Assembly: GCA_029940535.1 (NCBI GenBank)
Contig: JAPYUM010000032.1
Location: 1 to 42,591 of the forward strand
From: Vicinamibacterales bacterium
GTDB lineage: Bacteria; Acidobacteriota; Vicinamibacteria; Vicinamibacterales; UBA8438
DNA length: 42,591 bases
Direction: 5' to 3'
Part shown: one piece after another, positions 33,181 through 37,349 of the stretch
Layout: every line of letters starts with the position of its first letter
How positions within the stretch are numbered: position 1 is the stretch's first letter
Position numbers and translations under genes: made by a program
Notes under the pieces: generated by a model
Told to the model about the DNA's origin: nothing
The model's input: only the letters and a program-made list of their open reading frames with translations
Databases searched by the model: none

Positions 33181-34335
33181 CTACTTCCCGCGAATCGGCC
33201 CCGACAGCATCTCGGTGAGCCAGTGGCCGGCCCGGTCGACCTTGGCCTTGACGTAGGGCAGGTTGTGGCGATTCAGCGTGCCGTAGAGCGGCAGGCGGTC
33301 CGCCACGTCGATGCCGCCGGCTTGCAGGGCTCGCACCTTCTCCGGGTTGTTGGTGAGCAACTGAATTCGATTGATGTGGAGATACCCGAGCATCTCCACC
33401 GCGGCGTCGTATCGCCGCTCATCGGCGCCGAACCCCAGCGTGCAATCGGCGTCGACCGTGTCCAGTCCTTGCTGCTGGAGGGTATAGGCGCGCAGCTTGT
33501 TCCCCAGACCGATACCGCGCCCCTCCTGCGCCAGATAGAGCAACACGCCGCCGCCTCGAGCGGCGAACACCCGGAGGCTGCCGCGCAACTGCTGCCCACA
33601 GTCGCAGCGGAGACTCCCAAACAGGTCGCCGGTGAGACAGGCCGAGTGCAGCCGGACCGGCACCGGATCCGGCCAGTCTTCTCGCACGCCGAGCAGGATG
33701 GCGACATGCTCGAGGATGCCGTTGGCTTCACGAAAACAGACGAACCGGGCCTCTTCCGCCTCTTCCAACGGCACCGGCCCATCGCTGACGTAGGTGACCT
33801 CCACCCGGTTGTTGGCGGCCAGGGCCTGGATCTGGTCGGCGGTCACCGTGGCAATGCCATCCTCGGCAGACTCGCCGTCACGCGCGCCGTCCTGGCGAAG
33901 CGACACGCTCACGACCGCCGGCAACAGCTGTCCGAGCCGGGTCAGGGTCAGACCACCGATCTCGGCGATCGAGGCGGCCCCCATCGCCACGCGGTTCCGG
34001 TCCGCGTGGTCCAATCCGCTCGACAGACTCCACACCGCGTCCGGCGTCGTCTCACCGCTCAAGCTCAGACTGACGTCGCCCGTGTGCACGCCCGTGGTGC
34101 GATCGGCGATGTGGCCCATCGGCGGGGCCGGGGTCAGCCCCATCGCATGCGCACGATGATGGGTCACGGCGAGACGCAGCGGACGGCGTGCATCGCCCCG
34201 CAACTGGCCCAGCGTCGCATGGGTGAGCCCCTCGACCGCCGCGAGCAACACGGTCTCGTCAGACGACGGGCCTCCCGTCACCCGGATGGGACGACCACGT
34301 CGAAGGTCGAACAGCCCTCGCTCTGCCTCGTGCAT
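33181..34335 (-). CDS. ribA: GTP cyclohydrolase II with N-terminal extension
   Basis: A 384-residue protein whose C-terminal half (about 178-384) is GTP cyclohydrolase II. Zinc ligands are C233, C244 and C246 (SACLTGDLFGSLRCDCGQQ); GTP contacts and catalysis fall in YLAQEGRGIGLGNKLRAY and GFGADERRY. The enzyme opens GTP to a diaminopyrimidine ribosyl phosphate, formate and pyrophosphate. Tyr284 corresponds to E. coli Tyr105, whose change to Met in a Streptomyces paralogue yields a formylated product as I recall; Tyr is kept here. Residues 1-177 have no DHBP synthase motif; they may be the GTP_CH_N-type domain, not certain. Gene orientation is opposite to both flanking pathway genes. Confidence 0.85.
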   Translation of the reverse strand: MHEAERGLFDLRRGRPIRVTGGPSSDETVLLAAVEGLTHATLGQLRGDARRPLRLAVTHHRAHAMGLTPAPPMGHIADRTTGVHTGDVSLSLSGETTPDAVWSLSSGLDHADRNRVAMGAASIAEIGGLTLTRLGQLLPAVVSVSLRQDGARDGESAEDGIATVTADQIQALAANNRVEVTYVSDGPVPLEEAEEARFVCFREANGILEHVAILLGVREDWPDPVPVRLHSACLTGDLFGSLRCDCGQQLRGSLRVFAARGGGVLLYLAQEGRGIGLGNKLRAYTLQQQGLDTVDADCTLGFGADERRYDAAVEMLGYLHINRIQLLTNNPEKVRALQAGGIDVADRLPLYGTLNRHNLPYVKAKVDRAGHWLTEMLSGPIRGK

Positions 34336-34376
34336 GCTACCGTCCAGCCTGAACTCCGATCCGCCTCGCGATACAG

Positions 34377-34397
34377 TTACTCATCATTTACTCATCA
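34377..34397. promoter_or_regulatory. Tandem 10-base repeat in the ribA/ribD-like divergent promoter
   Basis: TTACTCATCA occurs at 34377-34386 and again at 34388-34397, one base apart, giving an 11-base period equal to one helical turn. It lies in the 85-base gap between the divergent GTP cyclohydrolase II and RibD-like reductase genes. Two sites on one face of the helix suggest a regulator binding cooperatively and controlling both directions. The stretch is much more AT-rich than its surroundings. No FMN riboswitch is seen. Confidence 0.5.
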
Positions 34398-34420
34398 ATG
34401 GCGACCAGGGAGACCACCGC

Positions 34421-35305
34421 GTGCCGACTCAGATGACCGATTCCAGCGCGTGGAGCCTGATTCGAGCCGTTCCCACTGCCGATCCCGGCCCTCAACTGTC
34501 TCGGATTGCCCATCATAGTGCAACCGAGCCTATCTCGCTGGAAATAGACGCCTCCGGCGAATGGAGCGCGTCGGCCCCACTCAGCGAGGCGGCCACTGCG
34601 CTCATTGATCTGTATCTGCCGCTCCAGTTGGACGCCGACCTCGTGATCGGCCAGATTGGACAGAGCCTGGACGGCCGGATCGCCACAGAAATTGGACATT
34701 CGCACTACATCACCGGCCCAGCGGACATTCTCCGTCTGCACCGGCTGCGAGCCCTGGTTGACGCGGTGGTCGTCGGGGCTGGCACCGTCGCCGCGGACGA
34801 CCCGCGTCTGACCGTGCGGGAAGTCGAAGGCACCAACCCGGTCCGCGTGGTGCTCGACCCGGACGCACGGCTCTCACCCCAACACGCCGTGTTCAACGAC
34901 GGCGCAGCCCGGACACTGGTGGTCCGCCGAGCATCCGCCGGTGGATCGATCCCTGACCATGACTCTGACGCGGACGTGATCAGTCTTCCTGTCGCCTCCC
35001 TGGACCCGCCTGCCGCCCCCTCCGAGCGTCACCCGCCCGGATTCGCCCCCGTCCTGGTCGTCGAGGCGCTGCGCGCGCGGGGCCTCCGGCGCCTCCTGAT
35101 TGAAGGCGGTGGCATCACCGTCTCCCGGTTCCTCCAGGCGGGGGCGTTGACCCGGCTTCACGTCGCGGTGGCGCCACTGCTGATCGGTTCCGGACGCCCG
35201 GCGCTCACGCTCCCCCCGATTGACTCCCTGGACCAGGCGCTCCGGCCACCGTGCCGCACGTTCCACCTGGGCGAGGACGTCTTGTTTGATTTCGACCTGC
35301 GATAG
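34421..35305 (+). CDS. Stand-alone RibD C-terminal (reductase) domain protein
   Basis: A 294-residue protein of the RibD_C/dihydrofolate-reductase-like family. After an unrecognised N-terminal 70 residues, the domain shows IGQSLDGRIATEIGHSHYIT, HRLRALVDAVVVGAGTV, DDPRLTVR, RVVLDPDARL, then RRLLIEGGGITVSRFL and VAPLLIGSGRPAL. This domain reduces the ribosyl ring of 2,5-diamino-6-ribosylaminopyrimidinone phosphate or its deaminated form, with NADPH. The RibD deaminase domain is missing and no deaminase is nearby. I chose GTG at 34421 because GGGAG lies 8 bases before it; ATG at 34433 is possible. The stop is 6 bases before the octaheme gene. Confidence 0.8.
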   Translation: MPTQMTDSSAWSLIRAVPTADPGPQLSRIAHHSATEPISLEIDASGEWSASAPLSEAATALIDLYLPLQLDADLVIGQIGQSLDGRIATEIGHSHYITGPADILRLHRLRALVDAVVVGAGTVAADDPRLTVREVEGTNPVRVVLDPDARLSPQHAVFNDGAARTLVVRRASAGGSIPDHDSDADVISLPVASLDPPAAPSERHPPGFAPVLVVEALRARGLRRLLIEGGGITVSRFLQAGALTRLHVAVAPLLIGSGRPALTLPPIDSLDQALRPPCRTFHLGEDVLFDFDLR

Positions 35306-35311
35306 CGACCC

Positions 35312-36541
35312 ATGCCTTTCAAATCAATCTTCATCGCCTGTGTCATCGGGGGCAGCCTGATGGTGGCGGCCCTGATGATCAACCGCGCCCGACCGCCAGC
35401 CGACACGTCCGGGAGCACGCCCACGTTCACCCAGGCCACGGGGCGATGCGCGCAATGCCACCGGGAGGAGACGGCCGCGGTCGTCCACCAGTTCGAGCGC
35501 AGCGCGCACAGCCAGGCCAACATCACGTGCTACGACTGTCATCAGGCACTCGACGGACAGGAATCGAACGAACACTACAACTTTACGCTCGCGGGCGATG
35601 TCACCTCGCTGAACTGCCAGGCGTGTCACCGCACGGAATACGACCAATTCGCCCGCAGCCGGCACGCGCTGCCCGCCTGGGGAGCGGTGCGCGGCGCCGC
35701 CGAGGTCTCGGCCGATCTGCTCGCCGAGAGCGAGCAGCATCACCCAGGCGCCGTCGATCGCCCGGCCAACGCGCTGGCCCTCCTCGAGGGCCCCGCGGCC
35801 ATGCAGACCGGTTGTCTGGCGTGTCATGCGATCGGCGCCCCAAATCAGGACGGATCGATCGGCACCTGTACCGAGTGTCACTCCCGGCACTCGACCTCGA
35901 TCGCCCTGGCCCGCGAGCCCCAAACGTGCGGACAGTGCCACATGGGCCCCGACCACTCGCAGATCGAGATCTACAACGAATCGAAACATGGGGCGCTGTT
36001 CAACGCGCAACGCCCAGCGCTGGACCTCGGCGTCGACCCGAAGCGGCTGACGACGGCCGACATGCCGATTCCGACCTGCGCCACCTGTCACATGAGCGGG
36101 CTTGATGGACTGAAAGTGACGCACGACACCACCGAGCGGCTGTCGTACTGGTTGTTCGCGGAAGTCTCCGAGCAGCGGCCCGGCTACCTCGCGGGTCAGA
36201 CGGAGATGAAAGAGACCTGCCTGAAGTGCCACGCGTCCACGAGCGTGAACGGCTTCTACGTAGAAGCCGAGGCGGTCGTGGCGGCCACCAACGAGCGTGT
36301 GGGAGCGGCGCGGGATCTGATGGCAGGCCTGCGGTCCGACGGGCTCCTGACACCAGAGCCGTTCGACGAAGCCATCGAGTTTCTCTATTTCGACTTCTGG
36401 CACTATTTCGGGCGCACGGCCAAACATGGCGCGTTCATGGGTGGCGCCGATTTCGTGCAATGGCACGGCAACTACGAGCTGCTCCTGAAGATGACCGAGC
36501 TCGAAGAAATGGCCTCGGCCCTCAGATCCGCCGGTGACTGA
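35312..36541 (+). CDS. Octaheme c-type cytochrome, hydroxylamine-oxidoreductase-like
   Basis: A 409-residue exported or anchored cytochrome with one N-terminal hydrophobic helix (residues 5-23) and eight CxxCH haem sites at 46-50, 73-77, 102-106, 168-172, 186-190, 206-210, 256-260 and 303-307. After the last site comes a haem-free helical tail with FWHYFGRTAKHGAFMGGADF and QWHGNYELLL. Eight haems with a helical C-terminus is the plan of the hydroxylamine oxidoreductase/hydrazine dehydrogenase family, slightly shorter than usual. Whether the Tyr that cross-links haem P460 is present needs an alignment, so oxidation versus reduction of N compounds is open. It is 6 bases after the RibD-like gene and overlaps the membrane gene. 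Confidence 0.85.
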   Translation: MPFKSIFIACVIGGSLMVAALMINRARPPADTSGSTPTFTQATGRCAQCHREETAAVVHQFERSAHSQANITCYDCHQALDGQESNEHYNFTLAGDVTSLNCQACHRTEYDQFARSRHALPAWGAVRGAAEVSADLLAESEQHHPGAVDRPANALALLEGPAAMQTGCLACHAIGAPNQDGSIGTCTECHSRHSTSIALAREPQTCGQCHMGPDHSQIEIYNESKHGALFNAQRPALDLGVDPKRLTTADMPIPTCATCHMSGLDGLKVTHDTTERLSYWLFAEVSEQRPGYLAGQTEMKETCLKCHASTSVNGFYVEAEAVVAATNERVGAARDLMAGLRSDGLLTPEPFDEAIEFLYFDFWHYFGRTAKHGAFMGGADFVQWHGNYELLLKMTELEEMASALRSAGD

Positions 36542-37349
36542 CCCGGACTGGTGGAACCGGCACAAGGCGGCGGTGCTGGACACCTTCGCCCTCTCGAACT
36601 ACGCGTTCCTGGTGCTGGACGTCTATCTCGCGCACTCCGTCAATCGCTTTCGGCACGGGGCCGAGTGGATGCCGCTCGGCTTTTCGCTCGCCGCGGTGCT
36701 GGTGCTGGCGCCGGCCATCGCGCTGCGGGCCCGGGGTCAGGGCCAGGCGTTCGTTCACGTCGGTGGGCTGGGGGTCGGATTCGCCTCGATCGCGCTGGGT
36801 CTGGCTGGTGTCGTCTATCACCTCGACAGCCAGTTCTTCTCGCAGTGGACGATCCAGAGCCTGGTCTACACCGCGCCGTTCGTCGCGCCACTCGCCTACT
36901 CGGGCCTCGGGTTCCTGCTGGTGTTGAACCGCCTGGTCCCACGCGCTGATGCGGAGTGGGGTCAGTGGATCGTCTTCTTCGCGCTGGGCGGCTTCGCCGG
37001 CAATTTCGTGCTCACGCTCTGTGACCACGCCATGAACGGGTTCTTTCACGCCACGGAATGGCTCCCGGTGGGCGCCAGCGCCGCCGCCGTCGGTTTCCTG
37101 GCCGTGGTGCTAATGGACCGACAGACCGCGATCATCCGCATCGCGTTCGCGATTCTTGCGCTGCAGGTCGTCGTCGGGCTGGCCGGCTTCTACTTCCATC
37201 TCGTCGCCGACGTCAACGGCCTCTCGTCAAGCCTGTTCGAGAATTTCGTGCACGGCGCGCCGGTCTTCGCGCCATTGCTGTTCGTGGACCTGGTGCTCCT
37301 GGCTGGTGTCGGGCTGTGGGACATGCGGGGCCAGTGCGAACCGGACTAA
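36534..37349 (+). CDS. Internally duplicated 8-TM His-rich membrane protein
   Basis: A 271-residue integral membrane protein starting with GTG at 36534, overlapping the octaheme stop by 8 bases. It consists of two homologous four-helix halves. Half A has H34, N37, H41, E44, W45, P47; half B has H165, N168, H172, E175, W176, P178, identical spacing. GLAG-x-x-YH-L (H96) and GLAG-x-x-FH-L (H222) match, as do YTAP-x-x-APL (112-120) and HGAP-x-x-APL (240-248). Paired His in membrane helices suggest b-haem or metal binding, so a quinone-side partner for the cytochrome is inferred. I do not recognise a named family. It converges on the flippase gene with a 16-base gap. Confidence 0.75.
   Translation: MTDPDWWNRHKAAVLDTFALSNYAFLVLDVYLAHSVNRFRHGAEWMPLGFSLAAVLVLAPAIALRARGQGQAFVHVGGLGVGFASIALGLAGVVYHLDSQFFSQWTIQSLVYTAPFVAPLAYSGLGFLLVLNRLVPRADAEWGQWIVFFALGGFAGNFVLTLCDHAMNGFFHATEWLPVGASAAAVGFLAVVLMDRQTAIIRIAFAILALQVVVGLAGFYFHLVADVNGLSSSLFENFVHGAPVFAPLLFVDLVLLAGVGLWDMRGQCEPD

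Follow-up and report, generated by a model that had tools for sequence, protein, structure and literature searches.

Few protein families are known to connect the quinone pool with periplasmic enzymes that act on nitrogen oxides or oxidize sugars: cytochrome b, NapC/NrfH, NrfD, and multihaem c subunits. GMC enzymes of the gluconate 2-dehydrogenase type usually have a multihaem cytochrome c subunit. NrfD-like subunits consist of two four-helix repeats with a quinone site on the P side and no cofactor, and His residues are among the proposed quinone ligands (PMC8076601). In Kuenenia, HAO-like octahaem cytochromes are found in a Rieske/cytochrome b complex (PMC12954380, PMC12485887). The locus described here, from a Vicinamibacterales bacterium in the phylum Acidobacteriota, pairs an octahaem cytochrome c with a membrane protein that is predicted to have eight helices and is composed of two homologous halves. 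This protein is probably the membrane-integral part of a redox complex that is encoded by two genes and links the quinone pool and the octahaem, although the haem, the quinone, and the formation of the complex are features that we infer.

The window, by which we mean the whole stretch of 42,591 nucleotides that was analyzed, contains the gene pair and its two repeated modules at the following positions:

35312 to 36541, forward strand: HAO-family octahaem cytochrome c of 409 amino acids, with eight CxxCH motifs and an N-terminal signal or anchor helix (Pfam and PDB matches).

36534 to 37349, forward strand: gene for the eight-helix membrane protein, with a GTG start codon at 36534 and a stop codon ending at 37349, 271 amino acids (translation).

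36573 to 36941, forward strand: module 1, approximately residues 14 to 136, with H34 (end of helix 1), E44, P47, G89, G92, H96 (end of helix 3), and P115-x-x-A118-P119 (14-sequence and 49-module alignments).

36963 to 37325, forward strand: module 2, approximately residues 144 to 264, with H165 (end of helix 5), E175, W176, G215, G218, H222 (end of helix 7), and P243-x-x-A246-P247 (same two alignments).

As read from the DNA, the membrane-protein gene shares 8 nucleotides with the 3' end of the octahaem gene. The initial annotation of this DNA does not mention the octahaem gene, which is located directly upstream. The reverse strand of the membrane-protein gene is broken by stop codons and is otherwise unremarkable. 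The pair (35312 to 37349) is flanked by riboflavin enzymes, a flippase-like gene, and a methyltransferase, and these flanking genes do not reappear at the loci of homologues. The riboflavin genes, between 32342 and 35305, are on opposite strands: GTP cyclohydrolase II, which bears a long N-terminal extension, at 33181 to 34335 (reverse), and a RibD_C reductase at 34223 to 35305 (forward). A creatininase-family gene adjoins them, and its top NCBIfam score, which is below the cut-off, is for mycofactocin MftE.

By sequence, the upstream protein is a member of the HAO family. It matches PF13447 (E 3.4e-23; 82.7 bits, with a cut-off of 21.9) and is the sole match to this family in its genome. Its best-matching relative of solved structure is 4qo5, the Ignicoccus octahaem, and it also matches the HAO structures 4n4j, 6h5l, and 1fgj (E from 1e-14 to 1e-49 for these relatives). 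Residues D214-H215, which follow the haem 6 motif, are invariant in 14 octahaems and align with D267-H268 of 1fgj; in HAO, this Asp-His segment is catalytic. An S-K-H-G segment likewise aligns with NeHAO (1fgj). In oxidative HAO, a Tyr is cross-linked to the catalytic haem, and this feature was used as a guide to the direction of electron flow. The candidate column for this Tyr, at residue 381, contains F in 12 of the 14 octahaems and Y in the other two, in alignments that stop short of the NeHAO C terminus.

The membrane protein lacks CxxCH motifs, and its eight helices, four in each half, come from a low-confidence prediction. The initial annotation held that the protein is made of two homologous halves, and profile self-comparison bears this out. 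When derived from the alignment of 14 sequences, the profiles of the N-terminal and C-terminal halves match in hhalign over 111 columns with a probability of 98.4%, an E value of 4.3e-15, and a score of 90.8. The top score among 30 column-shuffled controls is 16.4, so far below the real score that the duplication is evidently genuine and not an effect of composition. The details on which the claim had been based can also be read in the translation: H34, N37, H41, E44, W45, and P47 recur at a constant offset of 131 residues as H165, N168, H172, E175, W176, and P178, and the motifs GLAGVVYHL and YTAPFVAPL of the first half have counterparts GLAGFYFHL and HGAPVFAPL in the second.

Conservation among the 14 full-length homologues revises the choice of important His residues. 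Invariant in all 14 are H34, N37, E44, P47, G89, G92, H96, P115, A118, and P119 in the first half and H165, E175, W176, G215, G218, H222, P243, A246, and P247 in the second. Position 41 is occupied by H, R, K, V, Y, or P, and position 172 by H, Q, F, R, A, N, or T; this variability rules out H41/H172 as a conserved paired site. The expectation that homologues conserve the His residues thus holds for H34, H96, H165, and H222 and fails for H41 and H172. The initial annotation raised the question of whether H41 faces H172 and H96 faces H222. The invariant equivalents are instead H34/H96 and H165/H222, and the two His residues of a pair are therefore expected to come from the same half, one from helix 1 and one from helix 3 of the module.

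The same pattern extends to distant relatives. All of 49 modules, including those from distant two-module and single-module proteins, have a His that ends helix 1, a G-x3-H motif within helix 3, and a P-x-x-A-P motif where helix 4 begins. In 10 of these modules, the half boundary was set with the aid of P-x-x-A-P, so this motif is not independent there; His was never a selection criterion. E44 is not retained across this wider family. The Gly residues 4 and 7 positions before the His of helix 3 fall on the same helix face, and a Gly face beside this His would be a common feature next to a porphyrin. Across the 14 homologues, loops on the side of the N terminus contain 145 Lys and Arg residues, and the His-bearing loops contain 64. 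Taken with the low-confidence helices, this positive-inside count suggests that all four conserved His residues are near the periplasmic face of the membrane. AlphaFold2 yielded a pLDDT of 44.8 for the full protein with one homologue, which is too poor to place side chains, and 59.5 for a single module with four halves as input, which is too poor for His geometry. As expected from so poor a model, a Foldseek search with the module found no match at E < 0.001.

The octahaem and membrane-protein genes are tightly linked. A gene encoding eight CxxCH motifs is directly upstream, on the same strand, of all 14 full-length homologues, and in 12 of these 14 pairs the two genes overlap or are within 20 nucleotides of each other; start codons are uncertain in the other two. 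The octahaem-linked form was surveyed within one phylum (396 genomes), and in viral and plasmid records. Among the 396 Acidobacteriota genomes, the octahaem clade (645 to 753 bits) and the full-length membrane protein (322 to 428 bits) are present in the same 13, and a gap of 645 versus 366 bits separates this clade from sister octahaems. Octahaems paired with the membrane protein form one clade in the octahaem tree (support 99/98), and evolutionary distances among the octahaems closely parallel those among the membrane proteins (Mantel r 0.987, 0 of 999 permutations). The host families of the pair are scattered, which suggests that the genes have spread by transfer as a two-gene cassette. No relative was found in viral contigs, and a search of plasmids with the window protein found no octahaem-linked form. 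One genome (G386) has, in addition to the intact pair, a frame-broken copy of the membrane-protein gene at a distance of about 14 kb (L064:4200-4700, reverse strand), and another (G345) contains an 89-residue C-terminal remnant of the gene with no octahaem alongside (L067:5949-6215, forward strand).

Sister octahaems in the 396 genomes are without the eight-helix protein. A recognized membrane redox gene adjoins 18 of the 40 sister octahaems whose surroundings were read, and these 18 loci comprise 8 with Rieske and cytochrome b genes, 6 with NapC/NirT, and 4 with NorB, a cupin, and an Rrf2 regulator. Pfam was used to check examples of the cytochrome b, Rieske, NorB, and NapC genes, and the cupin and Rrf2 genes were named by eye. 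Loci L104, L106, and L128 are among the sister loci with such neighbors, and some sister octahaems also adjoin a molybdopterin oxidoreductase. These associations suggest that the sister-octahaem loci are nitrogen-oxide respiration modules.

Distant two-module relatives, which are homologous to the octahaem-linked form by profile comparison (E 8e-12), have another kind of partner. In Acidobacteriota, these relatives immediately precede genes for Gluconate_2-dh3 and a GMC oxidoreductase, and the operon additionally encodes TPP and enolase-like enzymes; Gluconate_2-dh3 adjoins the relative in six acidobacterial genomes. Relatives were also detected by tblastn in 27 plasmid records, where they are annotated as 'hypothetical protein' or 'putative membrane protein'. 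Ten plasmid regions, from Pseudomonadota, Deinococcota, and Actinomycetota, were read, and the annotation names GMC in 8 of them. A gene annotated only as 'putative oxidoreductase' matches the position and length of GMC on the Komagataeibacter plasmid, and Deinococcus D7000 has a single large subunit-3 protein that is long enough to contain the GMC part. Among the GMC operons examined, only that of Methylocystis has an adjacent multihaem gene.

The relatives in Deinococcus and Frondihabitans are single modules of 156 to 157 residues, and such forms suggest a fusion origin for the double module, from a four-helix unit that forms dimers. Single-module forms of 141 to 157 amino acids were seen at three loci (L162:3507-3980, L166:3432-3902, and L068:5775-6197). 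The two from Deinococcus and Frondihabitans adjoin Gluconate_2-dh3/GMC, and the third, from the order to which the window belongs, is without a recognized partner. Two divergent two-module relatives on the reverse strand (L065:6661-7665 and L066:6732-7739) keep both His pairs; the sequence around them contains no octahaem or GMC partner, and a gene for an Rce1-like CAAX protease is adjacent.

The view that the protein belongs to no named family stands: neither the octahaem-linked nor the GMC-linked form has a Pfam or NCBIfam match above cut-off, and a PDB sequence search with the octahaem-linked form also found none. Matches below the cut-off to the Pfam families Rhomboid (E 0.0039), RDD, HlyIII, and holin are not common to family members and were taken as chance. 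Comparison by hhalign revealed no homology to NrfD (E 0.18) or to cytochrome b (E 0.21), and no Pfam match to PF03916, PF00033, PF01292, or PF14358 was found. Our literature search, whose coverage excludes subscription journals, found no published description of the module, so an earlier account is possible.

In the mechanism that we propose, the eight-helix protein would anchor the periplasmic octahaem cytochrome c to the inner membrane, and electrons would pass through it between the quinone pool and the octahaem. Each module would hold one haem b with bis-His ligation, placed between its first and third helices and beside a quinone site on the P side. The P-x-x-A-P motif that starts helix 4 and the Gly residues at His-4 and His-7 would line the His pair. 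The module is of general use: in other bacteria, it is encoded, single or double, alongside a GMC dehydrogenase of the periplasm and the gamma subunit of that enzyme. Because the octahaem and the flavoenzyme both need periplasmic-face exchange with the quinone pool, the module is probably a quinone-coupled membrane electron-transfer subunit. Flow from quinol to the reduction of nitrite, NO, or hydroxylamine would be slightly favored for the octahaem, and flow from substrate oxidation to quinone slightly favored for the GMC form. Counting against this mechanism, all four His residues are on one face, so that any bound haems would not form a transmembrane pair like that of cytochromes b of the bc1 and hydrogenase types; quinone motifs are not recognizable from sequence alone, and the profile comparisons show no homology to cytochrome b or NrfD. 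The initial annotation had already suggested a haem- or metal-bearing anchor in a duplicated bundle. An invariant His pair in each module, the pairing with an octahaem, and the lack of a named family agree with that suggestion, H41/H172 drops out of it, and the haem or metal itself we infer. Somewhat harder to accept, and offered as a tentative idea that could nearly as well be right as wrong, is that the four-helix module represents a novel b-type cytochrome class that shares no ancestry with those already known, each module bearing one haem at the periplasmic face; its single or tandem copies would then be interchangeable quinone-linked plugs for unrelated periplasmic enzymes, the octahaem HAO-like reductases or oxidases and the GMC sugar dehydrogenases, in at least four phyla.

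Alternately, the protein might be a haem-free quinone-binding anchor like NrfD/PsrC/ActC, in which the conserved His and Pro residues line one or two periplasmic-face quinol sites by the cytochrome. The predicted number of helices, the layout of the repeat, and the position beside the partner would all match those subunits, and the His residues would be near the membrane surface. However, neither the profile comparison nor Pfam connects the protein to NrfD, and the two invariant His residues at equivalent helix ends of each module, with Gly at -4 and -7, would exceed the needs of a quinone site and would be typical of haem b helices. A haem-free anchor is unlikely in our estimation, albeit one to be taken seriously.

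It seems quite improbable that the protein carries no electrons and is instead a structural anchor of the cytochrome or dehydrogenase, or a factor that assists their assembly, for example in haem handling or export. Conserved polytopic proteins beside secreted cytochromes can be maturation factors, and gene pairing by itself does not prove electron transfer. However, the module is also used in GMC operons, where, among those examined, only the Methylocystis example has a multihaem neighbor, and c-haem maturation is therefore not its specific task. Beside many of the sister octahaems, moreover, a membrane redox module stands in its place. Hardly credible is a binder or transporter of Cu, Zn, or Fe that is co-encoded by chance. 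Helix ends rich in His and Glu (H34, E44, H96, and their repeats) could ligate a metal, but E44 is lost in the wider family, the partners are redox enzymes, with no metalloregulators or chaperones, and no metal-transporter family is matched.

If the eight-helix protein is indeed a quinone-linked membrane subunit, then a widespread module that has no name constitutes a further quinone route, which serves two unrelated types of enzyme. Its presence would indicate which of the octahaem HAO-like enzymes are coupled to quinone, which bears on nitrite reduction versus hydroxylamine oxidation in Acidobacteriota. The module would also account for how GMC operons that lack a cytochrome subunit could function.

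The octahaem shares with the HAO family (NeHAO, 1fgj; Ignicoccus, 4qo5; Kuenenia, 6h5l) its eight CxxCH motifs and the D-H and S-K-H-G segments. It is shorter (409 versus 500 to 570 amino acids), is nearest to the Ignicoccus protein, and is co-encoded with a membrane partner that is undescribed for known HAO-family octahaems in the literature searched. In Kuenenia (kuste4569-4574), a membrane partner, a di-haem cytochrome b, is likewise encoded beside an HAO-type octahaem (PMC12954380, PMC12485887). In contrast to that Rieske/b system, the present locus has no Rieske gene, its membrane protein is not homologous (E 0.21), and its His residues are on one face, whereas the Kuenenia type has a haem on each side. 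NapC/NirT/NrfH proteins (PF03264) pass electrons from quinol on to multihaem enzymes of the periplasm and occupy the adjacent-gene slot of some sister octahaems. However, NapC and NrfH are c-type cytochromes with one helix, whereas the protein here has eight predicted helices and no CxxCH. NrfD/PsrC/ActC (PF03916) subunits have eight helices in two four-helix repeats, a site at the periplasmic face, and periplasmic multihaem or other redox subunits as partners (PMC8076601). The helices predicted here at low confidence would follow a similar plan, but there is no detectable homology (E 0.18). As further differences, the repeat can be recognized in the sequence, some relatives consist of one module only, and every module carries a pair of invariant His residues. 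Finally, three-subunit GMC dehydrogenases of the gluconate 2-dehydrogenase type share Gluconate_2-dh3 and GMC with the module operons; the place of their multihaem c subunit is occupied in those operons by the His module.
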